In this document: piece after piece, positions 19,008-38,344 of the stretch | Position numbering within the stretch: position 1 is the first letter of the stretch | Layout: each line of letters opens with the position of its first letter | Assembly (NCBI GenBank): GCA_021234155.1 | Contig: JAJEKV010000071.1 | Coordinates: forward strand, 3,718,483-3,782,482 | DNA: 64,000 bases | Direction: 5' to 3' | Source: Isoetes taiwanensis | Taxonomy: Eukaryota; Streptophyta; Lycopodiopsida; Isoetales; Isoetaceae | Program-made: the position numbers and the translations under genes | Notes under the pieces: generated by a model | Seen by the model: only the letters and a program-made list of their open reading frames with translations | The model's database searches: none | What the model was told of the DNA's origin: nothing

Positions 19008-21765
19008 GTCAATGCTGTGGACCACCCAAAGGGTATTGAGGCTATCCTCTACAAAAGGTTGGATTGGAAGAATAAGAAGGTGAAACTGAAGCACCAATGC
19101 AATAAGGAGCTAGTAGGTGAAGGAACTATCATACTAGCTGATCCTATCCAGCCATCAATGATGAAAGGTTAGGAGAGGATAAAGTGGGTGTGGTCATAAC
19201 AAGTTTAAAGGAAAAATGGAAGGAAAAAGGATCAAATCACCGAGGATTGCCTTCGCTTGTATTAAACAATTCGAGAGGTTCCATGCATCATGCCATGGCC
19301 TATAGCCCTTTGCATTGAGTTTATAGGAGAATTCCTTTTACGAGAGCCGAGGTTGTGGATGACACGATTTTCTTAATGCACCTCAATAGCTTCCGGGACC
19401 ACATTTTCGGAGAAGAGGGCACACTCGGTGGTGAAACATTATCCTAGCAAGAGGTCCAAGTCAAGTAGTGATTGTTCGTGAAGCTCGACTAAGGTAAGGG
19501 GAATGGAATGTTGTTGGGCTAATTGTGTTCAGAAGTTTGAAATTGATGAATTGGTGGAAGCAAGAGCCACCTTCAAGAGTATGGACTTACATGTACTCCA
19601 TTCATGAGCTTGCACTTCAAGATGAAAAATTTCCAAAAAAAAAAAAATACCTTTGCTAGGGACATGGATATGTAAAGTTGCATGGATACATATTCATGGC
19701 ATTCCAATTTCATCTTGGCAAAATTGGCAAGCAAGTCATGCAAAGGGGAGTAAAATTGCATTACATGGAAATAATGGCATGTTGAGGCTAACTTCTAGGA
19801 TCTGGCTGCTAGGGAGGTTTTTGAAAAATATGTTGAATTCAATCCGAGAATATGCCACATAAAAGTAGGAAAGATCAACGAGGGAAAAATAGTTGTCGAG
19901 AAGAGATTGCCATCCCATTGTACCCGGAAAGAGCATATTGGAGGAAGTGAATGCTTTGCTTGAGAACTTCTGGTGCACGCAATATCTCAACCCGGCTTGG
20001 TAGACTATGGAGCAAGCACTTCAAGCATGTCACTATAGACACTTGAACAACTTTGCAAAGTGCAACTTGTGTGCTAAGTTGAAAGAGATTCTTGATAAGA
20101 CCAAGCAACCAAGCCAAAGGGCTAAGATAAGGGAGCAAATGAAAGATCACATGGCGGACCAACTATCACGTAGATCCACTTATTGTATGTGGAGAACATT
20201 ATCATGTTTGGAACCCAATAACTATGTTTGTATTATACATGACAAGATGGATCAATCGAAGACTTGTTTTACAAAGTATAGTTACATACCCAAGCAAATC
20301 AATAGAGCTTATCCTTTGCAAGTCTCTCGACAAGTGCAATAGTGCATGGCTGGTTGCCAATTTATTATGGCCATTTTAGTTTGCAATTGTGGAGTGATGG
20401 TCTGATTTTCATATTGGAAGTGTGATGAGGTGCTTGAGGAACTATGAGAGTGGTTATTACGGTGACCTCCACAACCACGGAGGTGGTAGCCAACCACTCT
20501 TGATTGCATTGTTGGATAGAAAGCCTAATAATTTAGAGAAGTTTACTAAGGCAAGGTTTAGGAAGTCGGTGCTTACGAACATGTTGGAGCCTCAAGTTCA
20601 CGTCCCCAACCTCGAGATCTACCACCAAGGTTCCTCCTCCAACTTGACAATTGTCTTTGGACGGAATAAAAGCAGTATATGTTCTCATTCCTATCTTATT
20701 TAACAGCCGTGGGTGTCTTTGAAAGAGTGAATTTAGGGTTCTTAATGCATGGACATACTCATGAGGATGTGGATGCATTGTTTGGGAAATATAGTCTTGC
20801 CAGGTTGAAATCTCAAGCTGTGACCAATCTTCCTAGACTAATGGAAGTTCTTAGTGAATGCATTTCACCTTCTCCTATAGGGTTGATCATACAAGAGGTG
20901 CACGATTGGAAGAATTTTATCGAAGGTTATGCTCTTGATATGGAAGGTCAATCTAGACCTCTTGATTACACTTTTACGGGTCATGGGAAATAAGCCAATC
21001 ATGCAATGGAAGATGAGACCTTAGGATGATAAATGGAGGCCGGATAAGGGAGTACCTATATGGCACGAAGATGAAAATGGTAAACCTAAGATTCCAAGGG
21101 TCAACCAAAAGCTCTTAAGCCTTTTTCGAGAGGTGGATTCATTGCAAAGCCATTGGGCGGCATTTACGAATACATCAAGTATTGGAAAAATAACCCGATG
21201 ATACCAACCTTGCATTGATAGATTATTGGACACGGTACATGGACTATTGGGACAAGTAGACACATCCTCGATGAACTCAAAGATGGATGGCTACCTAAGA
21301 CTAGGTGGAGAGATTTGATAACACCGAGGAAGGCGATGATGTGGTTAGTGGTATTAAAGTCCATGGCTCCTCCAATTCTTGAAAAACACTATGTTGGTCC
21401 TAGGAAAGGAAGGCCTAAATATCTCGGGCTGGAGGATTATGATCCCAAAAAGATGACTTGCTTTGCCATCAATTTGCACTTATATAGTACGAGGCTTAAA
21501 AGAGATATACCTGTGTGGATGGGTTACACCATCTCGAGAGGTTTGCAAAAAAGTAGGTGACCGCAATGTGAACAAAGTTCGTGTGGAGTGGTGGTGTCGG
21601 TGCACCCGTTAAATGCGAAAAAGAGAGGAAGAAAGGTATAGAGATTGTTGGACAAAGAGATGGAAAGAAACCCTATTGAAGGGGATGATTGGGTTGAGTT
21701 AGATACTATTTTGTTTTCATGGACCCCAAAAGGTCATCGAGGGCAAGACCGCTAGGGTTACAATA
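19008..21765 (+). pseudogene. DUF7869-like transposase-type gene, copy B (degenerate)
   Basis: The first exon (19008-19167) sits between AG and GT sites and reads VNAVDHPKGIEAILYKRLDW through EGTIILADPIQPSMMK. Later parts are broken by frameshifts but keep the family order: CNLCAKLKEILDKTKQPSQR and HDKMDQSKTCFTKYSYIPKQ (20241), then MRCLRNYESGYYGDLHNHGG, VHVPNLEIYHQGSSSN, LMHGHTHEDVDALFGKY (about 20740), and C-terminal DDKWRPDKGVPIWHEDENGK (21030). The DGMDQ-KT and GHTHED motifs mark a widespread eukaryotic family of mobile-element proteins, here called DUF7869-like, probably of RNase H/DDE type. That fold is inference. At least six frame changes make it inactive. Confidence 0.6.
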
Positions 21766-22079: not shown

Positions 22080-23560
22080 TAAAATGTTGTTACGTCCAAA
22101 GTTTAACATCAAAGTTCCCATAGGATTTTTCCATGGTATCAGGTATCGCGGTTGGTACATCAGATCCCGGTCCACTTATTAATGGCATGTGACATCCCCT
22201 GTCTACGATGCTCCCATTGTATTGGAAGGCGGAGTTCACCCCCCTGCCAACCAAGCTGATAGAGGCCGTCCACCTGACACCAATCCTTTAGCAATGGATC
22301 AATGAGGAAGAATGGACGGGTCATCCGTCCCGTCTTCCCTCGGGACCGTCCTAGCTGCGGAAGCGTAAATAAATGTAAGCACATGATATCAAATGCAAAC
22401 AGAGTCACCTCGAAGGGTGACTAAACCATAGCATACATGTATAAGCACATCCACAACATCATCATCACATGGGAGATCCTACCTGAGACTCAGACTTCAG
22501 GGTATGGACTGACGGCTTGGGTCTCCAGAAACCATTGCAGACAGAATTCATGAGAGTGGATTGGGCTAGCATAGGAACATGGCTGTTGGGTAGTCCTCTC
22601 CATCCGCCCCTCCTGTGTACACTTTGCAGAACAGGTTGAAGAGACTTGGGACTGCACCGTAGCCTACCGGGTGCGTAGCCAGGGGCTACTACAGGGGTTT
22701 CATCTCCCCAGCCCCGATGAGGCAGGAAGGGGATCACCCCCTCCTGAGGCATGCATGCCCATCACAGGCGGCTAGAGGGCCACTGCCCGTCTTCGGCTTG
22801 AACCTCATTGAAGGTGACTCATCACCCAAGAGGTGTCGAGCTCATGCCTTGCCCACACGCAGTGGCAAGCCATTAAGCGTAGCCTGCTAAGATCCCTGAT
22901 AGGCTTTACACACCAGAGGGATCAGTCTGTAATGGGACAAGTCCTCCTTATTCCACTGTTCTAACCCCGCCACTCAAAACCAGACAGTCCCTTGTACACA
23001 GACCGCATTAATTGGGAATTAATGAGGCTATCTAGATGCATCTACTACTGAAGGTTTCAGGGTCTCTACCCCCCTTCCCAATACACAGGAGTGAGCATCG
23101 AATGGAACATCATCATCAAAGAACTGAGATACTGAATAATATCTAATCTTTCTACCTAAACATACATGGTTAAGTTCTTTAGTTAAGGCTTGTGATCTTA
23201 GGATCTATAAGGCTGCTAAAACTAATCTACCATGCTATCCTAGCTCATTGCCCGGCTAAAAGTTGGCATTGCACAACGGATCACAGGTTACCTGATCCCT
23301 GGCTTTCTCCTGCTCCTCGAATCACGTCCATGCCTTCGCTTGGGTTGAAGGCAACTGTTCCTGGAAGATCTGTTGTGCAAAGGCAGCTTGCCGGCGCCTG
23401 GCAATGCGAACTAGCTTCTTGGCTTGGCCGGAATGGCCCAAGGAAGCCAAAATGCGAAAATGGAAAAGGTTTAGAGTTTCCCCTTTTGTTCCTTTTACAT
23501 GAAACAAAGTTTAAATTGAAATGCACTTATTTGCTCCACACGCACTTCAAAAGGAATCTT
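22080..23560 (-). mobile_element. LTR-like segment, probably solo or fragmentary
   Basis: GC-rich, ORF-poor DNA unlike its AT-rich neighbours, with many short CT/GG words in a style common to plant gypsy LTRs, best read on the minus strand. I found no second copy, no clear TG/CA ends and no target duplication, so the call is tentative. The part from 23560 to 23930 is AT-rich with nothing recognisable. Confidence 0.3.
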
Positions 23561-23937
23561 TGAAAGATTCCCTAAAATTCCCTAAAAAAAGTCCATTTTG
23601 AAGGTTTGCTCGTGACAAGTGTGACAATTTAGTTAATTTAGGTACCTTTTTTGAGGGGTTGATTGAACATAGCTTCTATGCAAAAATATTTAACAGCTAT
23701 TTTCATCCTCCTAATTTGGAACAAAAAATAGTTACTTATATGAAGTGTAGCAAAAAAGGGGCAATAAAAAAAACAACAAGGGTAGTAGAGTGGCAAAGAA
23801 GTGATATATTCAAAGCTTGTGAAAATTTTACAAAATTATAAACAAAATTGTCAAAAATATAGGATATTTTGACAAACCCTCATCACCTGCACTTTTTGTT
23901 GTTTACATGTTTGAGTCATCGGACAAACTTACATTTT

Positions 23938-24095
23938 GCAGCAATATCAGGATGCATGTCATCCTCAGACTCATTTAGTCCATGATCAGTAGAGACTTCA
24001 TCCTCACCTTCACTCTCAAAATGGATATACTCGAACGATCTTCTTCCTCAGTGTCTACAAGTGAGTCTTTATCATCATCTTTTTTGGCCGTCTAA
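23938..24095 (-). pseudogene. Acidic exon, probable continuation of gene C beyond the nested element
   Basis: The minus strand reads an acidic segment in two frames (KKDDDKDSLVDTEEEDRSS, then FESEGEDEVSTDHGLNESED and MHPDIAAK), ending at a GTAAGT donor near 23946. It abuts the left end of the 7.8-kb element. On the other side of that element gene C runs up to the identical CTAA site. I infer that both belong to the same older mobile-element gene. Confidence 0.4.
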
Positions 24096-24515
24096 GGGTG
24101 CAAAATCGGTACTGGATAGCAGAATATCACCATCCGGACGCCGCTTACAAGTGCTTAAAATCGGCGTGTTTTAAACACGACGTGCGTGATTGATCAATTG
24201 ACATGTAGGGTGCGCGCCCGTCAAATGACAGGCTGAGAGAATCATGAGCTTGTTTGGTGCCGGAAACATGAATGCCTGTAGCCCGCCATATTCGTGGATG
24301 GCGGGCTAACCCATCTTGAATTCAAGCAAAATGGAGGGACTAATTGTTTCCAAGAATTGCCTGAACCGAAATTCAACAATTTGCCCTCACCCATTTTGCA
24401 AATACCGCAAACAGGGATAGATGAAACCCAATTCCTCTCCCGATCAGCTTTCTGAGCCATTGATGCAGCAAGGAAGAGAGATCGAGGCAAGAGATTGTAT
24501 GCAAAGAAGGTAGCA

Positions 24516-27134
24516 ATGAAGAATAATTCCCCTTCTAAAGATTCGCCTTCAAAGAAGAATAAGAAATTGAGACCGAAAGTGACCCTGAGAATAAGAGAAA
24601 TTTCAGGAGAAATTTATGAAGTATTCAACCAAATTAGTACAAATGTTGATGACAATGACAAAGGTCAGTATCCTTGATGTCTTCTTTGGAGGGCAAAGGG
24701 ATTTACCAATTGCTTCTACAAAGAAATCTAAGGTGTTACTATGGCCGAGCAAATGGTGAAGAATTTGAAGGAAACAATGCAAGAACATAAGTATGAGAGG
24801 AATCATGACATGCTTCGCGTGCAAGGAAGTCCACCCGGATAATGGCAAAGAAGCAGGTACAAATGGTGTCAAGCCATTGAATCAAACAGAAGTGGCAGAT
24901 TGTTTCGGCATCCCGGAAAAACAATTTCAAATGCTTTTCAAAGAAGGGTGCAAGCTAACAAAGGGGAAGGACCTTGGTCAATGTTCAGGAGGAGGAAGCG
25001 GATGGATAACATGTTAGATTACAATAGAGAAGCTGTTATCAAGTTAAGGGCCGAGAAAATACAAGAGTTTCTCCATACAAGAAAAGGCGTGAGGAGGTAT
25101 GTATCGAGAGCAGGAATAAAGATGGAACATCCAATTCACCTTCTTGAAGTCAGCCAAGTAAGTATTCATCCTATATTGTAGGGTTCATTATATGTAGCAT
25201 TTATTTGGCATTCACACGATTTCCCTGCAGTTGCAATTCTACCTCAGGTTTAGAGAGGAGAATCCTCATATCAAAATTGTATTGCAGACTTTTGAGAGGT
25301 TGAAACCGAGTTTTGTAAGGAGGATGCGTGAGAGGCATACATCTTTGTTGCATCTACCACTTGAAATTTGAATACATCATGCGAGGATTGAACGGCTCGA
25401 GAAAATCGGGTGGACTTCATGACAATTGCAACCGCCATTGTGAGATCTGTGGCCCCGCCCGTAATGTGCAGCCAAGGAGCATACAATCAAGTGCACCAGT
25501 GATTTATGGAGACAAGTGGTCCGGCAAAGAAAGGTGATGATGAGGAGTGGTTTGATCATAAGCGCTTGATGTTGGCGTGTAAAAATGTGGGTTGGATAGA
25601 ATTAGAAAATGTCCACAGGAAATGGATGGCACGGGTTCGCATTACTAGTTACTTGGAAGACATTTGAAAAGCAACACGTGGACCGGAGAGAATTCGGGGG
25701 ATCCAAGAAAGGCTTTGAGGTACAAACCTGTCTTGAGATTAGTACAGAAGGAGAGAAGTCCCAAAGAGTTTCAAGAGGATGTGAAGAAGGTAATATCAGA
25801 TTTTGTTCCACACAATTACATAGCACATTGGCAGGCCAATCAGTTTAAGCGTGTGTGTCATCATTTCGGAAGATACAATTGTATACGTTATTGACTTTGC
25901 AAAAAATTCTGACATCAAGATCCGAATGAGCCCCGAGTCAATGCAGCGGCATACAAACCAAGTTTCTATACTTGTTCACATAACATATAGACATGACAAA
26001 AATGCCGATATTCTGTTCCTATCTTGATTTAAGAAGACCGTCAAAAAAAAAAAAAAAGAACGTAAGATTGGAGCAGATCGAGGGAATAGATTCAACAATG
26101 GTAGGAAGATCATAAAAAGAGACTCACTTTTACATTTCGATGATAAAGTGCATGACTCATTATTTGTGGAACACGCCTACAAAAAGCATGTTGCATGGCT
26201 TAGGAGGAATGGGAAATAGAGTATGAGAAGCATTGGGTTTGGAGTGAAAACTTTTTTTTTTCTTAGGCGGTACTTCACAATGAATGACAAAGGAAATAGT
26301 GTGGAACTACTTTACACTTCGCTCATGGTAAAGGTGAACATGATGGTGCAGTCTTTGTTATCAAAAAGGTCGCTAAGTAAGGAACAACTCAAACCCAATG
26401 GTGTGCAAGCGAGGCATGCTAATATTGTAAAATTTACGTGTACATATTTGTGATCTACCGGTTGATGAAACAGATGAGATCAAAAAAGATATTTTTGGGA
26501 AATTGAACTGCTTTGTTGTGGCAAACATGGAAGAATATGAAATTGAAACACTTAAAAGCACAAAGAGGATTCATCGTATCGGACACATCGTGAGGAGTAG
26601 ACCAAAGCGGGCTTGCTCATAGATGCCCTGTCATGTTTCTCGCTTGTTTTGCATGGATCATAATTGGGACTCTGCATCAATACGTAGATTTGGAAAGTGG
26701 GAGGTAAGCTGACTTACAACTGGGGAGTTGAGAAGAAAAAGGAGACTCTTGAACAAGCCAATGAATGGATCAGTAATTTGGTAGAGGTAGGTGACAATTT
26801 TGGCAAAGTGAATCTTTGAGGTAGACAATTCAGGAGGGTGTGGACTTCTACATCCTCAAGTGCTGAGTAACCCAAATGCACACTTGAAGATTCATACAAA
26901 GATGGATAGGGGCAAAAATTTGGAGTGCATGAGGTTATCTTAAGTGGATTGTATTATCAATTCTTGGGTAATTTCAAGTACATGTTGCTCACTAAACAAC
27001 CCGAAGCCTCCGTGCACAGCCATGTGGTAAGATATTCTAAAATTGATATGGACAAAATAGAAGGCACAGACATGTACAAAATTTCACAGGAGACCCATGA
27101 AAAAATTATGGCAAGTCGCCCAATAACATTGTAA
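24516..27134 (+). pseudogene. Transposase-like gene of element A (DUF7869-like family)
   Basis: ATG 24516 starts MKNNSPSKDSPSKKNKKLRP, and exon 1 ends at 24663 (AAAG/GTCAGT). Downstream pieces read YNREAVIKLRAEKIQEFLHT, then an exon after CTGCAG at about 25232 with LQFYLRFREENPHIKIV and RRMRERHTCCCIYHLKFEYI (a Cys-rich box), LVQKERSPKEFQEDVKKVIS, YVIDFAKNSDIKIRMSPESM (about 25880), HGKGEHDGAVFVIKKVA (about 26330) and EQLKPNGVQARHANIVKFTC. The xDFAxN and HGKxxxDG boxes are family hallmarks of these mobile-element proteins, and HGKGxxDG is likely part of the catalytic core (inference). Multiple frameshifts are present. It is the only candidate transposase in the element. Confidence 0.6.
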
Positions 27135-27658
27135 TTCTTTGACACTTAACCAAATTGATGTTATTCTTTTCAAGTGATTTGTTGTTCGAGCACCTAAGCA
27201 CGTAAGCACACATTTGTATATATATTATAATAATAGTGAGGATGCACAAGGGTGGTGTGCATGGACAGGTACTTCGAAATGAAGATTGAATTGTTGTTTA
27301 AGAATGTAGATTTGTGACATTGGAATAAGATTCAATTATTTATTTTGGTACCATCACTATCCCAACATTCTTGGCAAAATTATATTGTCAAGGCATTTCC
27401 TCGATGTGACATGTGTCAATTCGACTGGTCATACGAAATATTTAAGCCTGGTTACGAATTAATTGTTCCGCACGTGTGAGGTTTTTCATACAGCGGCGCC
27501 TAATGCGGGATTTAAGCACTAGGCGCCTAAGCGTAAGCTCTTCTCACAAGCTCACGCTCCACCCATTCCCCGCCCAATTCCTCCGCACTCCTTCCCAATC
27601 CGCCGCACTCCTTCCCAATTCCTCCGCACCCCGCCCAATCCGCACAATCCGCCGAAGC

Positions 27659-28131
27659 ATGAAGCGAAAAGCTAGCGAGGAGCCGGAGGTCACCTCCAAG
27701 AGGCGCTTACTTGGCGTCGAAGAGGTGTTCCCTCCACTCTTCCCATCTTTGCCTGATCTACTTGCCTCCTCTGCTGCCTCCTCTCCTGCCCACTCTACTG
27801 CCTCTCAATTTTCCGATTCCGATTCCAATTCTTCTGATTCCTATGAGGAATCAGAAAATGAGGAATCGGAACTTTCTTCGCAGGAATATGTCACTGCAGT
27901 TCTGCAAGGGTGGATAGAGGAAGAAGAAGAAGAAGACGAGTCTGATGAAGAAGTCCCTGAAGAAGAAGAAGAAGAAGAAGAAGAAGCAGAAATTGAAGAT
28001 GAATCGGCCGACTTTGCAGACTTCATGGCGCTCATAAATGGTATGCATGTTTCATTTGTTTTCTTTAATCAATTTTTCATTTTCATTTGTTTAATCAATT
28101 TTTTGTTATTGGTGTTGCAGATGGAGAATGA
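27659..28131 (+). CDS. Acidic ORF of element A, two exons
   Basis: Exon 1 (27659-28040) starts MKRKASEEPEVTSKRRLLGV, a nuclear-localisation-like basic start, then a Pro/Leu/Ser segment (FPPLFPSLPDLLASSAASSP), and then long Asp/Glu/Ser runs. It ends at a GTATGC donor. Exon 2 begins after GTTGCAG at 28121 and adds three codons before TGA at 28129-28131, giving about 130 residues. No domain is recognised. It resembles the basic-then-acidic ORF at 17.8-18.3 kb. Such ORFs could act as a DNA- or chromatin-binding partner of the transposase, but that is inference. Confidence 0.5.
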
Positions 28132-28187
28132 AGGGCCTCCAGCTTGCCTCCGGCGTTTTTTTTTTTAATTATTCTTGCCTCCAGCAG

Positions 28188-28291
28188 ACACCCCCTGAAG
28201 AAGACACCCCCAAGAAGACACCCCACGAAGACACCCCTCAAGAAGACACCCCCAAGAAGACACCCCCCGAAGACACCCCTGAAGAAGACAT
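28188..28291 (+). repeat. GAAGACACCCC minisatellite
   Basis: About seven imperfect 12-18-bp units built around GAAGACACCCC. Translated in one frame they give TPPEEDTPKKTPHEDTP-type repeats, so they may once have been coding. They directly follow the acidic ORF. Confidence 0.8.
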
Positions 28292-28359
28292 CGGTTCGAG
28301 GGCCAATTTTTTTGTAAAAAAATTTGTTCATATCCTGAAGACACTGGCTTGAGGGCCTT

Positions 28360-29190
28360 TTTTTTGTAAAAAATCTTGTTTATATAAAAAGTTTTTTGTC
28401 TCTATCAAAGTTTTTATTGTCTCTATCAAAGTTTTTTGTTTCTCTATCAAATGTTATTTTTGTCTATCTATCAAATATAGTCCATTCAGATTCTGCTTGA
28501 ATGTAACAGTGCTCTAGCTCTTTAATTAGTTTCAAACACTAAGCATTTTAATTAGTTTGATAGTGCTTGTGAGTAAACCTTTGGAACACACGACACTTAT
28601 GCAATAAACAGCTAGCTTTAAGCAGGTTATATAGCTTAACGTAAGAAAACCTTGCACCTTAAGCGCATGGCGGTAAGCACTTGATGACATTAACACTACG
28701 CTGGCGTTAAGCAACTACATACTTAGTAAGCATCCTTTGCATGACAATAAGCGAAGATTCGCCATTCGGACTCATACCGGACTAGCACTTGCGGGCAATT
28801 TTTTTTTTTAAGCACTTGATAAGTTTTTAAGCATCCCTTGCGGTCGGCATTGAAGTAGATATAAACAATATAGCAAAACTTATAGACAAGTCTGCCTTTG
28901 AACTACATAAACAATATAGCAAAAACATTCTTAAATTAAGATAAAGATGGTACATGAAAAGTGTAGGATTCCTTGGCCTAAATAAATGACAATCAGGCCA
29001 ATAATCATAAATGTCTCAGGCTTAATCACAGCAATGGAGAATGACAATCTTCATCACCATAAACCTTCTTCAATTCCTCCTTCACAAACCTATAGAACTG
29101 CAATTGTTTTCCAGAAAGTCTTTCCAAGCATAGCTTCATAATCTTTCTATCTGTCTTAGGCGGGGCTTGTATCGTGTGTGTTCTTCACCA
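28360..29190. other. AT-rich interior of element A
   Basis: Between the acidic ORF and the HAD ORF there is no supported gene. Short repeats of TCTCTATCAAAGTTTTT (28400-28475) and TAAGCACTTGAT/AAGCATCC words (28610-28840) are seen; the latter resemble the element's subterminal words. Confidence 0.5.
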
Positions 29191-29197
29191 AGTAACT

Positions 29198-29747
29198 TCA
29201 TTTTTTTCCTCGTCTTGGCCTGCGATTATTTCTTCTATCTTTGGGGTGAAATCTTGTTAGCACTTCATCATAGACATCCATCTTGAATGCAGGTACTAGC
29301 GAAGTTTCGAGGGATTTGCTAAGGTAAGACTTGTATATTGAATCATCAAGAAGCAAAGTCTTACCTTTGAATCTTGGGTATGACTCATATACTTTCCCAA
29401 GTGGCTTCATCATGGCCCGGACTGACCCAGGTTTGTTAGGGTGGTGAAAACTGGTCTTCACACATTTTTCCTGTCCCCATACAAATAGAAATCCGTCCCT
29501 CAAATCTGGACATAGTACTTGCAGCACATCTTCCACATTAGAGAGTTGCATTGATGACCATATACCAACACAACTTACAGAACAAAGTCTTCAAGAAGAA
29601 CACCGCTCGGGTGCGAATATCACTTTCTTTTACGCTAGTGTATGTCATTGTCAATCCTGATTCCAAGCGTATGTGTTCATTTGCACCAAATGTTTTTACC
29701 AACACACCATTTAAATCCAAGACAATGAGTTTATCTTTTGCTGCCAA
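29198..29747 (-). pseudogene. HAD/FCP1-like (NIF) phosphatase ORF inside element A
   Basis: From ATG 29747 the minus strand reads MAAKDKLIVLDLNGVLVKTF, the DLNGxLV motif I of plant FCP1/NLI-interacting HAD phosphatases. After a single frameshift near 29575 it continues VGIWSSMQLSNVEDVLQVLC (the xVGIWSS block), LRDGFLFVWGQEKCVKTSF, and YPRFKGKTLLLDDSIYKSYL (the LLLDDS metal-binding block), ending in a basic tail at 29198. Motifs, order and spacing fit the family well. The nucleophile position of motif I is Asp, followed by Leu-Asn. This looks like a captured host gene; its role in the transposon is unknown. Confidence 0.65.
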
Positions 29748-29989
29748 ATCAATATTTAGTGCGTTGGAACATCGAATACCTACACAACAGGAATTACTAC
29801 ATGAATAAATAGATGAAGATGAAAATAAAAATGGGTTGAATGTGGAAACCTTTCAGACATCAGCAGGATTCTCGACCTAACGGAATCAACTGGTAATCCT
29901 ACGATTGAATGCAACAAAAGAAAATCAATAATATTCAATGTTTTAAGCAACACTATTTACGGGCTTGCCAAAGAATGCCCTGACTTTTC

Positions 29990-31720
29990 GGGGTTATTAA
30001 GGGCAGCAATCACTTGTTGAAGATCGGGCTCACCCGAAACTCGAGGGGCGATTCTACATTTTCTTGAGAACACACGCCGATAGGTGTGGTGTCATGATTG
30101 AGGCGCTTCCCGCATCTTTTGCATAGCTACTTCTTGTTCTCTTTCTTGTAGCTTTGAACAACTTCTTTGCTATCCTCTAACTTACCCCTCTTTGTTCTTA
30201 CGCCCTTTCCTTTTGGCAAATATTAAGCCCAAGTTGCCCTCATCCAGATGGAATTACTCCCTCAACTTCCTTAGGTGCTTCGATTGTGTACAATCCGGTC
30301 TATTGTTGTTTTTCCACAACCGGTCTTTGTGTTTATAACCTGGTCTTTGTGTTTACGACTTCTTCTATAGCTTCTTGGACAACTTCTTGGGTGGTGGTGG
30401 TGGTTCTGTTGCATTCAAATCGGATCACAATTGATTTGTACTCCTATAGGACTTTCTTGGTGTTGTGCATCTTCAAATGGCACCATTGTCCTTCTTTGAA
30501 CCCTGAAGGGTGAGACCTCAATTGCAGGACGGATTAACACATCATTTTTTGGTGTACTATTTGAAGCACATGCAACATGGCCAAAACCTAGCTCGTCAAA
30601 TACACCCTCTGGCACCTTTCAGGGCAACCATGAATACATTGTCCTCCTCTCAACAATGAACAACAAGCTATATGATACTCATGTTGGCAATTCGATTGCT
30701 AAACTTAACCTCGTAAGCTTTAGTGAATTCCGGTCCACATCTTTGAACATGTATAAAATGGATCTTCCACTAACAACTTATCTCGTATAATAGTAGAGAT
30801 GCTAAATGTTGCAGGAGTATCCATTTTCAGCTTCCACAAATTGTTTATGTAGAATTGCAGAAGTCTCTGTTCTTCTTCGAGAACTTTTAACTCCTCCTCA
30901 AGTTTGAGTTTACATTTGACCTGCTCATTAACAGATGTAGGGTTCATTGCTTTTTGTACCTTGTTCCTGTGCCAAGTTTCCATCTGGACAGTCTGCTCCA
31001 AATCTTTAATTTACGCCTCCAACTCACGGTTTGGATTAAGCTTGAACTCCTCACGCTTTTTGTAGCCAAATCATTTGTGGCCATCTCTTAAAGCTGTTCT
31101 CGACCTCTTCCAACATCTTTTTCTGTAATTCAGAGGCCTTCTCATTGCCTTTCAGCTCACTTCCTACTGCTTCCAGATTCTTTGTGATAAGTAAAACTGA
31201 TTTTCCAATCTCCTGTACTGCATTCTCTAAGGTTTTTATGTTTTCATCACATGCACTGATCTCATTTGATCCAGCTGCCACCTTTGGCTTTGCCTTCATT
31301 TGATTTTCCTAACATGTGCTACAACATCCGCCTCTGTTTTTACTTGTCTATTGTTGTGGTATCTTTGGCATTGCCACGACAAATGCAGCCCGCTTTTTAC
31401 TTTGTGTTCCTCCTCGGTGCAACTATTGATCTAGTGTAATTTTCAAGCGCCAAAAGCAAGGGCGGTTGCTTTCTTACTTCTTTGTTGGGACAATTCTTGT
31501 AGATTTTTTTTGAGTGTTTGAACTTCTCTTGAAGATGCTCCTTTTTGCGGTGCCATTTTATCTTTCCCTTGTTCAACTTCTTTGTCCAAACAAGATCCCA
31601 ATCTCGATCCGTGACATTATTTTCCAACCAAGTTTCTTCCTCGTAGGGCTTCACCCCCGAATTGCACAGACCTCTGATGCTGTGAAAATCATCCGCGCTC
31701 CATGCCTCCATCATCAACAG
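29990..31720 (-). pseudogene. Coiled-coil gene of element A, degenerate
   Basis: Near the right end the minus strand reads MEAWSADDFHSIRGLCNSGV and ENNVTDRDWDLVWTKKLNKG (31.7-31.5 kb). It continues in changed frames through a Lys/Gln/Ser-rich segment, then EISACDENIKTLENAVQEIG and LLITKNLEAVGSELKGNEKA (31.25 kb), and LKLEEELKVLEEEQRLLQFY (30.9 kb), strong coiled-coil patterns. Further left a CKRCGKRLNHDTTPIGVC patch (about 30.1 kb) could bind zinc. The first segment has the style of transposase-associated DNA-binding proteins. Several frame changes. No known family assigned. Confidence 0.4.
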
Positions 31721-31862
31721 TGAAACACGATCACGAGTTTCGCGCCCGGCGAAAAAGGAGGGAGAAGGGTGTGACCAGACTTCGACGTCCGCGAAGTTTC
31801 AAAAGACTTAAAGTGCTTAAACGCGGCTTAAAAAGTTGTACCCCACTAGCGATTTTACACCC

Positions 31863-34835
31863 CTAATTCACATGCCGACCTTATTAAAGTTTGAGTGATC
31901 GCACGTAACTTTTTAGCAGCAGTCAGAACAAAGTCATATGCAAGAACCTTTACTTCAGCTAGATCTACGATACTAGTGTTTGCTTTAGACTTTGCTCTCC
32001 TTCCCACTCCTGTTTTTACCATTTTTAAACTATAACTTCCACTGAAAGCATTGGCAGCACTTGTTCTCATCCATTGCACTTTTAATTGAGTGGGAATTCC
32101 ATCCTCTCTTGTTACCTCCAATACTTTAGCTAGCCAAAATGGCTTTCCAGTTTCATCATTATCAGCTGGGACAGCTACGACCATTCCTTTTCGAATCTAC
32201 GAGGAGATCGAAACGGATGCAGAAACTTGTTGTGTCGTGCATCTGGGGCCAGTGTACATGACTCTGTCATCTTCATCTGAGCTAGGCATTATCTGTACAT
32301 GTTCTTCTTGATTCTCAACTTGCATAGGCAGAGTTTGCCTAGATGGCCAGTTGAATGTAACTGGTCTTTGACCTTGTAATAAAGCTTGTAACATGTCACG
32401 TTGCCGAGAAAAAAACTGAGGCCACCATAAAGCATCTGCCTCCCCAAAGTGGTTAGAGCATGACTGAATACTTGTCTCAACATAATCCAATGATTTGTTT
32501 GAGTCAAATGCTCTTCCCTCCTTTTTACTCTTTGTGATTTCTTTCAAGCTGTTTAGAGGCATTTGCTCTGCAGAGAGCATAGAAGTAGTATCGGGGATGG
32601 TGTGAATGAATTGAATACCAGCTGCTGGCTGCTACTGCAAGGATGTGGCATATTTCTTTCCTTGTAAGATGGCCTTGCCATCCACAAGTGAGAATTTGAT
32701 CTGATGCTGAAATGTAATGTTTCTCAAGGGCTCAATTGCACAGCGACCCAATTGATCTCTCCGAAAAATCCATTCCTTGAAATCATAAGTTTCTTCCAAT
32801 AACTCGATGTTTGGTCGAGGATTGTAGGAATCTTGGATCCTCAATCATTGCTGGCAGGCTGAGAGCTTTTTTTCGAGCAAGACGTTTAGAGAACCTACTG
32901 AACATCTGATCAATTTGATCGTGTGTATGACCAACAAGCAGGAAACCAATCTTCACCTTCTTGAAGATTTATTTCTCAACTAGCATGGCACAGTAAGCAA
33001 ACAATGCATGATTCTTATTTTCTCTTGTCGTATTGTCTAGCTGAAGATATAAAACTGGTGGTATACGTTCTAGACTGGAAAGAATCTTTTTCAATATTGT
33101 GATAGTGAGATTTGGATTAGCATGAATGTTTGGATAGTTCAAAAATGCCTTGCAAGATAGTTTCCCGTTAAATACCATAGCACCAACGACATTCAGGTGT
33201 ATGAAATCTTCTTCAGGGGCATCCTTAGGCACATTGACAAAGTGTGGTAGGGTGGTCTTCTTCTGGTCCATTCCATCAATAAAAACCGATATGTAGTTGA
33301 GTGGTTGTTCCAGTGCCTTCTTCCTGTGTTTTGTCAATTTTCTCCTTTCCAAAGATTGTTGTTCTCTGTGCTTGTTCAGTTTCTCTTTCAATGCATCTGA
33401 AATGAAAATACGTTCAGGACAAAAACCTACCATTGAGTAGAACTAGGCAAGAGTACGTTGTGGAAGCTTACTTTTAGTGTGAAGTGTCCTTGCATTTTGT
33501 CTCTGAGCTTTTAATTCAGAGCATGTAGCACAAACAGACATCCAGTGCTTTCTAGGAATAGACACGCGGGAAAACTCTTTTTTTCAGAGCACAGTGAAGT
33601 AAGAGTAGCATACATGGCGTTCTCCAGCCTCAACACACATATCCTTATAATTATTGTAGACTTCACGTTTCGTGAAGTTGTCACTCAAGTGGTACATAGG
33701 GCTGTTAGGGAGTTTCTCGCATGACTCCTTGAAGAAACCTTCCATCTAAGAAACACATTGAAGGGCATGAATTCTGGATATACTTCCTGAATGGCAGTAG
33801 TCATTAATGCCTGGATTCTTGTCAAGACTTTTCTTCAGGCGGTGAAGTCGTCTGCTGCCTAAAGCATGAATCAATTTAAAGGCCGTTTGACAGACGCTGT
33901 GGCCACCAGCTGTGTAAGTAAACTTATCACCATAATCTGCCCTAATATTGAAGGCTAAGTAGCCCCTTTGGTCTAACAAAGTCATTGAACTGTAATTATC
34001 ACGAATCAACCTCAATTCCTTTAGTCCAATCTTGAGCAAACAACGTTGAAAACAACAGTGCTTTGTATATGTTGCCCTCAAGTGACCCTCGTCCATAAGT
34101 TTCTTTCTTCTTTGCGATGTACAAGCTTTCTTGTGTAAGTTTCGCTTAAGGTTTTTTCTCGCAGGAGCTTTGAATTCGAACATAGAGTCTTGTGGCTTTG
34201 CTACGTCATCGTCTGAGAGACCAACATGAGGTGTTTCTTCGTCTGGCACGGGAGCAACGGATGGTGTACTAGTAGATGCTGAGAGGTTTGGTGTGGGCAA
34301 GTCTTGGAGGGAGTTGCTTTGCCTTTCTCTGGGAAAAAGTAGTCGAGGTTGGTGACGTAGTTGAGCAGCTCCTGAAATGTCATAGAATACAGGAGTTGCG
34401 TGGCGCTGACTGCTCCCACTTAGTGTAGTATCAAGTAGTGAGATGGATGGAGTTGGAGTGATTTGCCTCCGGGAAGCTATCTACGCTGGACTATGAGACG
34501 GACTAAAACGTAACCGGAGGAGGAGTCGAGCTCGTCTCCTCCCTTCTTTGAGTGAAATGAATGGGTGGAGGAAAGTTTCATTTGTTCCGTGGGCTGCGGT
34601 GGAGTAAAAACGATTGGTGGGGGCAAACGACGTTCAGGAGCAGGCGGTGGTGGAGTAAACTGAACTGGTGGTGGAAGCCGACGTGTACAAATGCCAGGGC
34701 TGGGGCTTTGAATATCAGAGTCAGAAGTTTCGTGGCTACTACCTGGGGACAAGGTGTGAAAACCATTGGAGGAGGGAGCCTGCGAGTAGGACGTGGCGGC
34801 TCTGGAGCTCTTTTCTCTCCAGCCATAGTCGCCAT
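31863..34835 (-). pseudogene. Gene C: DUF7869-like mobile-element protein
   Basis: The start is ATG 34835, MATMAGEKRAPEPPRPTRRL. A disordered N-terminus carries three RRLPPP-x-x-FTP repeats. Then follow KHCCFQRCLLKIGLKELRLI, DKFTYTAGGHSVCQTAFKLI, SVCATCSELKAQRQNA, FIDGMDQKKTTLPHFVNVPK (about 33.27 kb), YLQLDNTTRENKNHALFAYC (33.03 kb), KIGFLLVGHTHDQIDQMFSR (32.92 kb) and a C-terminal region with PFWLAKVLEVTREDG (32.12 kb). The blocks DGMDQxKT, QLDNxxRENKN and GHTHDQID are the family core and are well preserved. A few frameshifts break it, for example near 34752 in a run of C. It is divergent from gene D across the palindrome array. The 3' end runs into the CTAA site of element A, which probably truncated it. 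Confidence 0.65.
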
Positions 34836-34904: not shown

Positions 34905-35672
34905 GGTATAACTTTATACAGAGATGGTATAAATTTATACAGAGAAGTATAAATTTATACAGAAACGGTATAAATTTATATGAAAACTTACAAATTTTCG
35001 TATAGGAGACTTTATGGAAAACCCTATACGGAAAGGCACAGAACAGAAGTACTTAAGCCCGGCGGTGGCCGGTCTATTTTCTATATACGTTGTTTGGATT
35101 CGAAGCCGCTCGTGCTCCGCCTTATATACTCACCCCAATTTGCTCTCCCGAACAGCTATAAGCGAATCTATACAGTCATGGCCACGTAAGTCTCTAATCC
35201 GTACCATTCTAGTTCCGCATCTCTTTTAATCTTCTTGCTTTTGTTTTGTCTTGAGTCTTTGGTATAAATTTATACTGAGTCTAAGGTTCCACGGTATAAA
35301 TTTATGCCATTGGAGAACTCCTTCGGTGTAAATTTATACCGCGAGGGTTCTGCAACGGTATAAATTTATATCGCTCGTGCTCAGATGGTATAAATTTATA
35401 CCATTGCAGAACTCTTTTGGTATAAATTTATACCGCGAGAGTTCTGCAACGCTATAAATTTATACCGCTCGTGCTCAGACGGTATAAATTTATACGGTTG
35501 CCGAACTCTTTCGGTATAAGTTTATACCAAGAGACCACAGTCGGTAAAATAAACACAGTTCTTAAACACTGCGGTATAAATTTATACCGTAAGAGTATAA
35601 AATCATACTGCTGTCTTCTCTGTAGGTATAAATTTATACCGGGAGACCAGCTCCTCGGTTTAAATTTAAATC
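34905..35672. repeat. Iteron-like array of 16-bp palindromes
   Basis: Copies of the perfect palindrome GGTATAAATTTATACC and close variants start at 34905, 34926, 34946, 34967, 35261, 35293, 35325, 35357, 35387, 35419, 35451, 35481, 35513, 35573 and 35625. Weaker copies lie at 35543, 35594 and 35657. The copies at 35387, 35419, 35573 and 35625 are exact. From 35261 the spacing is 30 or 32 bp almost throughout, and 20-21 bp in the first group. A 94-bp unit holding three palindromes is tandemly duplicated (35325 and 35419). The array covers the gene C/gene D intergenic region and intron 1 of gene D. Confidence 0.95.
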
Positions 35673-38344
35673 GTGGGTGGAATGTCTAAAGAAAGGTCCG
35701 GAATCATACTTTTTTAATGATAGTGTTGTGTTTTGGAGTCTATTTCCACAGGAAAAGGGTAAAATAGCCCGAAATTGAGGTCCTTTAAGCCATTTTTCTT
35801 AGAACTAAAGTGGTTAAAATTGTGTTAAAAACGGTTTTCGTGATGTAAAATGGGTTTTTTTATGCCTTTTCAGCCCCAAGATTGTCATCAAAGGCAAGGG
35901 ACAACAATCATCGTCGAAGATACAATCTTACGAACTGAAAGATGTGATATGGTACATCCATAGGGGAGCGAGAGAATGCGACCCCACTGATGCGTACCTG
36001 TAGGCTGTACTTATGCAGTAAGACAGGAAGGGGGAAGTTTAGGACGGAGGATTACTACCCCGTCGGTGAAATGACAAGTTCAACAGCTACAGAAAAGGAG
36101 GACGAGCTTCTCATGAACTGCGTGAACGACGACGGGGATGTAGAGTACATTCTGAACAGCAGAATGCTTCGTATCAGCATGTGCAAGCCTAAAGACGTCC
36201 ATGATTACATTTCGGATAATTACAAGCTTGGTTATGTAAGTATGCGCACATCTCTTTGTTCTTTGTGGCTTTACCGTATAAATTTATACCGACAGCTGCC
36301 TAATTTACCCTGCACTACAGGACATAGTGGACATTTTGTCATCAGTGACACTCTGTGACGAGAAGGTTATGGTCAAAGGTCTGTGGTACCCGCGTCCTAA
36401 GGATGACGTGGAGAAAGAAAGCGAACCGGAAGAGGAACAAGAAGAGGAAGAGGAGGAAGTGGTGGTGATGAAAGGAAAGGGCAAGAGACAAGCCTTGGTT
36501 GTAAAAACTCAGGCCAAAAAAAAATCAAGAACCACAAAGGCCTTGACAATAGAGGAATCAGCAGAAGCGCTTCAAAAGGCTCATGAAGCAGATATTGTTT
36601 TGAGGCCCTCAGACAAATTGAGTGCTATTTTAAAAAGGGTTAATGAGACCAAGCTGTTAAAGCAGACTATTTCATTGACACTGAGCACGATCAAGAGGCC
36701 ACCAAAAACTGAAGATGGGGTCAGAGTGCTTCAGGTGAGGAAGTTATACGCGGCACATGTGGCTATCCTAAAGCAGAGAATGCGAAGGAATCCACATGCA
36801 CATGTGTCGCCACTTGTTATGGTTGATAGAAGTTAGATCCAGGAACTAAAGCATTACAGGAAGGCTGACTTCGAGGACTACACGTATTATGTTCTTGGCG
36901 GCACACACAGTTACAAAGCAAGGAAAGAACTATCTAAAGAAGAAAGCCAAAACGAGGTCTGGAAGAGCGTGGAAGCGCACATTTATGTGGGGCTAACAGA
37001 CGAAGAGGCGAAAGTCATTGCCGTGAGCCATAACCTCGACAATGATTTCAGGTTAAAGATGAACCTTATAGACAAAATCCGCTTCATGCACCGAGAGTAT
37101 GTCGAGTTCAAACAAATGCATGGAGAGGAAATTAAAAAACAGAAGAACAAGCTCCAGGAACTTCGCGAAGCCTGTGTGACTGAGTGCTGCCTAAGTTATG
37201 ATTCTGATAAGAAGCCCATCATGGCTGTGAAGCAGTACGACAACTACTTCCAACTTGCTTTCAGAGATGGCCAAGTAAGTACAACTTTTAAATTAGTCTC
37301 TCAATAGTCTGTTAAGCGTGGTTTAAACGATGTAGCAGCCTGGAGCGGTATAAATTTATACCAACCACCGGAAGGGTACCACTGTTTAAATTAATAGCGC
37401 AGCCATGCACGGTATAAATTTATACTGTGCCAAGGCACGGTATAAATTTATACCGTGGCTTAAGCTCTGTCACGCTCTGTTGTTTTACAACCATAGCCAT
37501 TTGCACTAAACTACTTGACTTCGACCTTTAACAGGTGTGGGATCTTCAAGAAAGAATTTTTTGCATGTTCGAGGATGGTGAACTTAAGGAACAAACTGAA
37601 AAAAACCGAAAAAAAACTAGTGAGACAAAGCAAAAGAACATGAACATTGTACCATGGACGCAAGTACAGGGTCTAAAGGGCAAGGAAATTTTTGTGCGTC
37701 TCTTAGAGAAAGTTGTGGCCAAAGAATTCACTCTAGATGAAATGGCTAAGGAGGCTAAGACGTAAGCCTCATTTGCTTCATCGTGTACTTCTTTTTCTTC
37801 ACTTTGAATTACAACTTTTTTCTTCTTCCAGCCAGAAGGACATTGTCACCTCCCAGTCCGAGTTAATGAAGCAACTAAACCTAGAAGACTGGGCGGAGTG
37901 CAAGCTTCTTTACCCAACTTGTACGACAGACATCACAATCAGAGAGCACGCAGTTAACTTCAGTGGCTGGGTGAGTTTTGCAGAAAACATGTTTTGTCTT
38001 TGTGCCTTTGTCTCACTCTTCTCTTACAGAACAAGAAGAAAGGGCTGCCAACAGGCTTTCTGAACCTGGTTCGTAGGGCCAAAGAGGAAAGGCAGAGACT
38101 GAAGGCCATTGAACAGGGAAAAGAAGTCGGCTCTAGCAGTTTTGACAATAGCTACGAAAGATTCACTACATTTGGACAGGATTGCTTGTATAGGGTTGTA
38201 CAGGGTGATTGCACCAGGCTGGCGACAATGGTGGACAAGCAAAACTTCACATTGTGCACAGCCGATATTCCTTATGGATTCAAAATTAAAGATAGCACCA
38301 TTGTGAAACTTCACATTGTGAAAAATGAGATCAAAATTGACTAA
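35178..38344 (+). pseudogene. Gene D: ParB-like domain plus adenine-methyltransferase-type domain
   Basis: Six exons with good GT-AG sites: 35178-35185, 35874-36235, 36321-37274, 37535-37761, 37832-37970 and 38030-38344. Exon 2 starts the reading MATPKIVIKGKGQ. Exon 3 has an acidic and Lys-rich stretch, then a ParB/Srx-like region with YYVLGGTHSYKARKELSKEE (about 36885) and YVGLTDEEAKVIAVSHNLDN. Exon 4 has VRLLEKVVAKEFTLDEMAKE. Exon 6 has YRVVQGDCTRLATMVDKQNF then LCTADIPYGF, the SAM-dependent GDC and (D)IPY motifs of adenine/N4 methyltransferases. A frameshift near 35993, an in-frame TAG at 36834 and loss of everything after the IPY motif make this copy inactive. ParB-methylase fusions are known from phages and bacteria; here the gene has introns. 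It is divergent from gene C. Confidence 0.65.
36275..37454. repeat. Additional palindrome copies in gene D introns
   Basis: The same 16-bp palindrome occurs in intron 2 (36275, one mismatch) and three times in intron 3 (37347 exact, 37411 one mismatch, 37439 exact). None lies within the exons of gene D, which suggests it is tolerated or used only in non-coding parts. Confidence 0.95.

Follow-up and report, generated by a model that had tools for sequence, protein, structure and literature searches.

Phased intronic palindrome arrays in a plant DNA transposon as candidate sites of a ParB-like protein

Short palindromes clustered at and within the gene of the protein that reads them occur in the ParB-parS, Noc-NBS, and KorB-OB systems of bacterial plasmids and chromosomes, in which the parS site is 16 bp long. 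Here we describe a 64,000-nucleotide stretch of the genome of the lycophyte Isoetes taiwanensis (assembly GCA_021234155.1, contig JAJEKV010000071.1, positions 3,718,483 to 3,782,482), hereafter the window, in which a palindrome of the same length, GGTATAAATTTATACC, forms arrays between two divergent genes, termed C and D, and within introns of D. The array-bearing element is a cut-and-paste plant DNA transposon with terminal inverted repeats (TIRs). Its palindromes might well be parS-like sites that are read by the ParB-like protein of its own gene D.

The element shares with the bacterial systems a ParB-like N domain, a helical part that aligns with helix-turn-helix domains, and palindromes clustered at and in the gene; it differs from them in being eukaryotic and interrupted by introns, in its residence on a TIR transposon, in its methylase part, in the phasing of the arrays, and in that the canonical cytidine triphosphate (CTP) motifs are not clear. 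With the CACTA (En/Spm) elements and their TnpA subterminal repeats, it has in common that a plant TIR transposon carries a short motif repeated many times in cis. Membership in that superfamily was nevertheless rejected: CACTA TIRs start with CACTA and their insertion duplicates 3 bp, whereas the TIR here is AACAARGTTTAAAATGAAACGCACT (AACAARG...), the duplication is 4 bp, the partner protein is of the DUF7869 type, and the array is internal and intronic. TIRs and a 4-bp duplication also occur in Sola-type and other eukaryotic DNA transposons; we know of no ParB-methylase gene in these groups. Finally, a ParB-like region followed by an N6/N4 methylase (PF01555) is found in prokaryotic ParB-methylase fusions and relates gene D to CcrM-like N6-adenine methylases, but gene D has an extra N-terminal domain and eukaryotic introns and is transposon borne. 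The element is a TIR transposon that carries clustered cis sites, and the reader of these is probably of the ParB type. A limited literature search found no publication naming DUF7869; among the matches listed, there was also none describing a ParB-methylase gene in a plant transposon and nothing relevant on palindromes or subterminal repeats.

Palindrome arrays inside one transposon family

A pattern search of the window located 20 sites matching GGTATAAATTTATACC with ≤3 mismatches (the threshold for all site counts unless stated otherwise), compared with a mean of 0.46 expected, and none of 100 shuffled windows reached 20. The sites span positions 34905-37454. An earlier sequence-only reading had reported about 18 copies between 34905 and 35672; 16 sites lie there, along with a four-mismatch copy at 35594 and a very weak one at 35543, in good agreement with that count. 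The spacings it gave, 21, 20, 21 and 32, 32, 32, 30, 32, 32, 30, 32, (30, 30), 21, 31, 32, were reproduced as well, both bracketed values hanging on the weak copy at 35543. Also recovered were the tandem 94-bp unit with three palindromes (2.5 copies, 89% matches) and the second inverted word in the spacers, GAGTTCTGCAA/TTGCAGAACTC, with one mismatch in some copies. Four further sites, at 36275, 37347, 37411, and 37439, fall outside that interval, in introns 2 and 3 of gene D. Under the gene D model, 4 of the 20 sites are intergenic, 12 are in intron 1, 1 is in intron 2, 3 are in intron 3, and none is in an exon. The description of the array as lying between the divergent genes is therefore true of 4 of the 16 sites of the interval, whereas the other 12 belong to gene D intron 1 (35186-35873). 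An Rfam search of the window returned no match at gathering scores.

At least 7,218 exact copies of GGTATAAATTTATACC occur in the 1.658-Gb genome, a lower bound, and no copy of the reversed pattern. The first places listed were grouped by us into 10 clusters, and a 10-kb stretch around each was analyzed; in all 10 clusters among the matches listed, genes or ends of a single TIR transposon family are present. Beside the array, L075, L079, L080 (C only), and L082 have matches to C and/or D, and element ends could be defined in L074, L076, L077, L078, L079, L081, L082, and L083. The sequence-only reading had raised the prospect of a palindrome scattered without any link to these genes; the word is indeed genome-wide, but the link is there in every cluster listed. 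In L075, L079, and L082, all 68 sites lie clear of the D exons that tblastn identified (a single one in L079), and the C regions examined in these loci and in the window contain no palindrome sites. Palindromes are present in introns 1, 2, and 3 in L075 and L082, and a further group in L082 is flanked by the DIPYG exon and by the weakly matched methylase exon that follows it. Occurrences in viral contigs were dismissed as chance matches, given that each of the 34 stretches holds one exact copy; no relatives of C or D were found in viral contigs.

The D-side end of the element reads AACAAGGTTTAAAATGAAACGCACT and the C-side end AACAAAGTTTAAAATGAAACGCACT, varying slightly among copies. Perfect 4-bp target duplications (AAAT, ATAG, TTGA, and ACCC) flank four of the five copies with both ends, the fifth being L083; one end-to-end copy, L082 + L084, is 8,601 bp long with the duplication ACCC. 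Short copies are of two kinds, three of 2.2 kb (L074, L081, and L083; 89-91% mutual identity) and a different one of 3.4 kb (L078). No C or D exons were found inside any of the four, the C match in L083 lying outside the element. The comparison with complete copies was made for L074, L078, and L081, leaving out L083: all three share 64-96 bp at the D-side end, 186-216 bp at the C-side end, and the array, and of the D promoter region ∼80 bp at 72% were found in L081, only 32 bp in L074, and none in L078. That short copies have the array speaks for a cis role that goes further than autoregulation, with the caveat that these copies were sampled through the palindrome.

Center spacings of ≤75 bp were pooled from the window and the 10 loci (n = 114; sites with ≤4 mismatches). 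They form groups at 20-21, 28-32, 40-42, 50-53, and 59-63 bp, and none of the 114 falls at 38-39, 43-49, or 54-58 bp. The best period is 10.35 bp, matched by none of 5,000 uniform draws, an optimistic figure because related copies are pooled. Likewise optimistic is a phase test with one modal value per array (p = 0.0002 including the misfit class described below), the values having been picked after the data were seen. The observations favor a fit of the main classes (∼21, 31, 42, 52, and 62 bp) to whole helical turns of ∼10.3-10.4 bp. Helical phasing everywhere was rejected, spacings of 28-29 bp forming a separate class; the intron-3 sites, outside the interval of the earlier reading, do not follow the phase.

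Genes C and D and a second lineage

Genes C and D are divergent and both are broken in the window copy. The gene D model was read by eye from GT-AG borders, without a transcript, and its exons 2-6 agree with the tblastn matches in L075 and L082. In the window, its frame breaks near 36003, a stop stands at 36834, and the end of the methylase is lost. The encoded protein begins with an N-terminal part, continues with a ParB-like region, and enters an N6/N4 DNA methylase (..TADIPYGF..). Structure modeling places a ParB N-domain fold in it, and the helical part aligns with the helix-turn-helix domains of ParB, Noc, and KorB; the sequences GGSHSAEARR and HNNDNDYR occupy the positions read as CTP motifs, their match to the canonical motifs not being clear. 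The methylase assignment rests on PF01555 in the gene D of L042 (32.8 bits; cut-off, 26.7) and on the DPPY-like motif DIPYGF in L042, L038, and the window, and a match to the NCBIfam CcrM model (5.4e-5) is far below the cut-off of that model. PDB sequence searches with gene D gave no credible match. A short piece of the gene retrieved no proteins, and a longer spliced piece did retrieve relatives. No ParA partner was seen, C and D being the only genes identified and no ParA search having been made.

Two window pieces of gene C contain DUF7869 (Pfam PF25273) at 72.2 and 59.9 bits against a cut-off of 26, and the DUF7869 protein is the probable transposase. Its structure model (predicted local distance difference test, pLDDT, 48) is too poor to judge an RNase H-like fold. 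The N-terminal part (34480-34835, minus strand) contains proline-rich repeats, RRLPPPxxFTP.

Gene D has relatives in Adiantum, Ceratopteris, and metagenome data. A scan of bacterial and archaeal genomes yielded nine loci, all in a single "Trichormus" metagenome bin (CAKZGI01 contigs; L035-L043). Trichormus is the symbiont of Azolla; for this reason, and given the introns in the genes and the fern relatives, the nine loci are very probably fern (Azolla) DNA contaminating a public bacterial assembly. None of them contains GGTATAAATTTATACC with ≤3 mismatches, and the suggestion that its TATA-like core acts as a promoter element gained no support. Instead, six of the nine carry an array of a different palindrome, GTCGATRCnnnGYATCGAC, with 5 copies in L035, 10 in L036, 8 in L037, 4 in L039, 15 in L040, and 2 in L042. 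The strict word occurs 37 times in the bin, on 8 contigs, six of them the array loci, and the reversed pattern does not occur.

In L036, L040, and L042, the array lies in intron 1, between a short first exon (ATG...CCAG/GT; 5' part read by eye) and exon 2. A lack of arrays beside other intact C/D pairs would, on the earlier reading, have refuted it; four of the five loci with both genes have an array, of another word, and L041 does not. In L035, L036, L040, and L042, gene C is an open stop-to-stop frame of 873-898 codons, and in L041 it is broken. The TIRs of this lineage, of ∼34-36 bp, are by eye unlike those of the window lineage past the first bases. Spacings are 40-43 bp in L037, L039, and L042, 50-52 bp in L036 and most of L040, and alternately 50 and 31 bp in L035, with irregular values at the array ends of L037 and L040. 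The values at 31, 41-42, and 50-52 bp again favor whole helical turns.

Two arrays of this lineage have a finer structure. In L036 (3652-4132), neighboring palindromes alternate in the orientation of the asymmetric 3-bp center (TAG/CTA; first pair, TAC/GTA), somewhat resembling the alternating inverted spacer words of the window array. In L040 (6238-6789), palindromes of alternating types have arms of 9-21 bp (≤1 mismatch), and the outer arms vary from type to type while remaining self-complementary in several.

The reader of the arrays

ParB-like proteins are a class that reads short palindromes, and on this ground gene D is taken as the source of the reader. We lean toward the reading that the ParB-like protein of this plant TIR transposon recognizes the arrays as its own parS-like, sequence-specific sites. 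A recognition array for a protein of the flanking genes had been proposed from the sequence alone; the link to C and D, which recurs among other copies and in the second lineage, and the ParB-like character of D speak for it, the binding itself being what we infer. In intron 1 and in the upstream region that the two genes share, dimers of D would load on one face of the phased sites and would there regulate D itself as well as the divergent C. They might also mark the DNA of the element, by bridging or spreading plus adenine or N4-cytosine methylation in cis, and the mark could let the DUF7869 protein act on that DNA. Such marking would explain why the array and the ends are kept in copies without either gene. 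More tentatively, and with doubt on our part, the whole could be a captured eukaryotic ParB-parS-like system, a ParB-like clamp-methylase that spreads or bridges on phased intronic arrays and writes an adenine or N4-cytosine mark for the transposase, with word and protein re-evolved together between plant lineages.

Several observations weigh against recognition by D. The short copies were all found through the palindrome, and array-less ones could exist unsampled. In the second lineage, no array accompanies C and D in L041, where the start of D is lacking, nor D in L038, which begins only ∼150 bp before the D coding match, or in L043, with roughly 0.5 kb upstream of the match. The divergence of gene D between the lineages is not specific to the part that would do the reading. 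Among the 114 spacings, the 15 in the misfit class of 28-29 bp, mostly from intron 3 and the late group, and another 13 at 22-27 and 33-37 bp fit helical turns poorly or not at all. Among 139 copies (window plus the 10 loci), agreement reaches 130-137 copies at the inner 12 positions and drops to 113 at the next pair and to 77 at the outermost one; this core constancy is partly due to the choice of sites by ≤3 mismatches. The window copy is dead and shows no constraint on its palindromes since the 94-bp duplication: by eye, the two full units differ at 4 of 48 palindrome positions and 5 of 46 spacer positions. In the second lineage, there is covariation at five arm positions, as detailed below.

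The equal divergence of palindromes and spacers, together with tandem units of 94 bp and 103 bp, would fit a functionless minisatellite that expanded by slippage and was dispersed through transposition. This explanation is very improbable in our view: introns 2 and 3 hold the same word in unrelated flanks, the sites avoid the D exons found in L075, L079, and L082, the spacings are phased, and the second lineage has the same layout with another word. That complete change of word at a constant position, as well as the confinement of all 10 listed clusters to the element, also makes very improbable the binding of a host transcription factor that would drive or silence the element, even though the sites are near the starts of both genes and many transposons recruit host factors. 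For RNA hairpins in the D pre-mRNA, acting in splicing or as a source of small RNAs, one can cite the concentration in intron 1, which holds 12 of the 20 window sites and the arrays of the three exon-read second-lineage loci. Moreover, in 43 second-lineage copies, which are related, pairing at arm positions 2, 9, 11, 12, and 16 is more frequent than in every one of 300 shuffles; symmetry may be favored there by selection or by a mutational process. In the window's genome, on the other hand, the flanks beyond the core pair at shuffle level, which suits the site of a dimeric protein and not a hairpin, four window sites lie upstream of the D start, and helical spacing is meaningless for RNA, so we rate the hairpins as very unlikely too.

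A lesser but appreciable chance is given to the reading in which the transposase (gene C, DUF7869), or a complex containing it, binds the arrays, much as with the TnpA repeats of CACTA, and D serves some other role. Clustered transposase sites are known from other transposons, and the short copies hold arrays together with ends. The arrays, however, lie in D introns and beside the D promoter instead of adjoining the TIRs, and it is D, not C, that resembles palindrome readers, the C model being too poor for comparison.

If recognition by D is true, a bacterial partition-type protein, joined to a DNA methylase, and parS-like sites are at work in a plant transposon. The element would offer a natural series of matched protein/site pairs in which the words change while position and phasing largely stay, and recognition, intron autoregulation, and self-marking by DNA methylation would become directly testable. 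Even if another protein binds, a word present in thousands of exact copies and set in phased intronic arrays is a strong cis signal to look for in genome annotation.

Coordinates and neighboring features

TABLE 1 Features of the window around the palindrome arrays (positions within the 64,000-nucleotide stretch)
Feature	Position	Strand	Remarks
Four palindromes GGTATAAATTTATACC between genes C and D	34905..34982	.	Pattern search; 1-2 mismatches; spacing 21, 20, 21
Intron-1 array	35261..35672	.	12 palindromes with ≤3 mismatches, mostly 30-32 bp apart, plus weak 35543 and 35594; three palindromes per 94-bp unit
Lone palindrome, gene D intron 2 (36236-36320)	36275..36290	.	
Three palindromes plus weak 37383, gene D intron 3 (37275-37534)	37347..37454	.	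Spacing 36, 28, 28 bp, off helical phase
Gene D	35178..38296	+	Exons 35178-35185, 35874-36235, 36321-37274, 37535-37761, 37832-37970, 38030-∼38296
Gene C, DUF7869 protein	31858..34835	-	Start ∼34835 read by eye; frame shifts break the window copy
C-side end of the family element	23502..24089	.	TIR outer end 23502; probably the same copy as the window genes, from collinearity with L079
Second, more distant DUF7869-like gene remnant	20425..21731	+	34% identity over 76 aa

The C-side end in the window probably belongs to the same copy as gene C, to judge from its collinearity with L079. A probable nested insertion, ∼7.8 kb of other sequence (24090-31862), lies between it and that gene. Farther out, the second DUF7869-like remnant has no palindrome with ≤3 mismatches in or around it (20100-21750). 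Sequence on either side of the 2.2-kb array-bearing copy in L083 is homologous to the remnant, which thus shows the unoccupied site.
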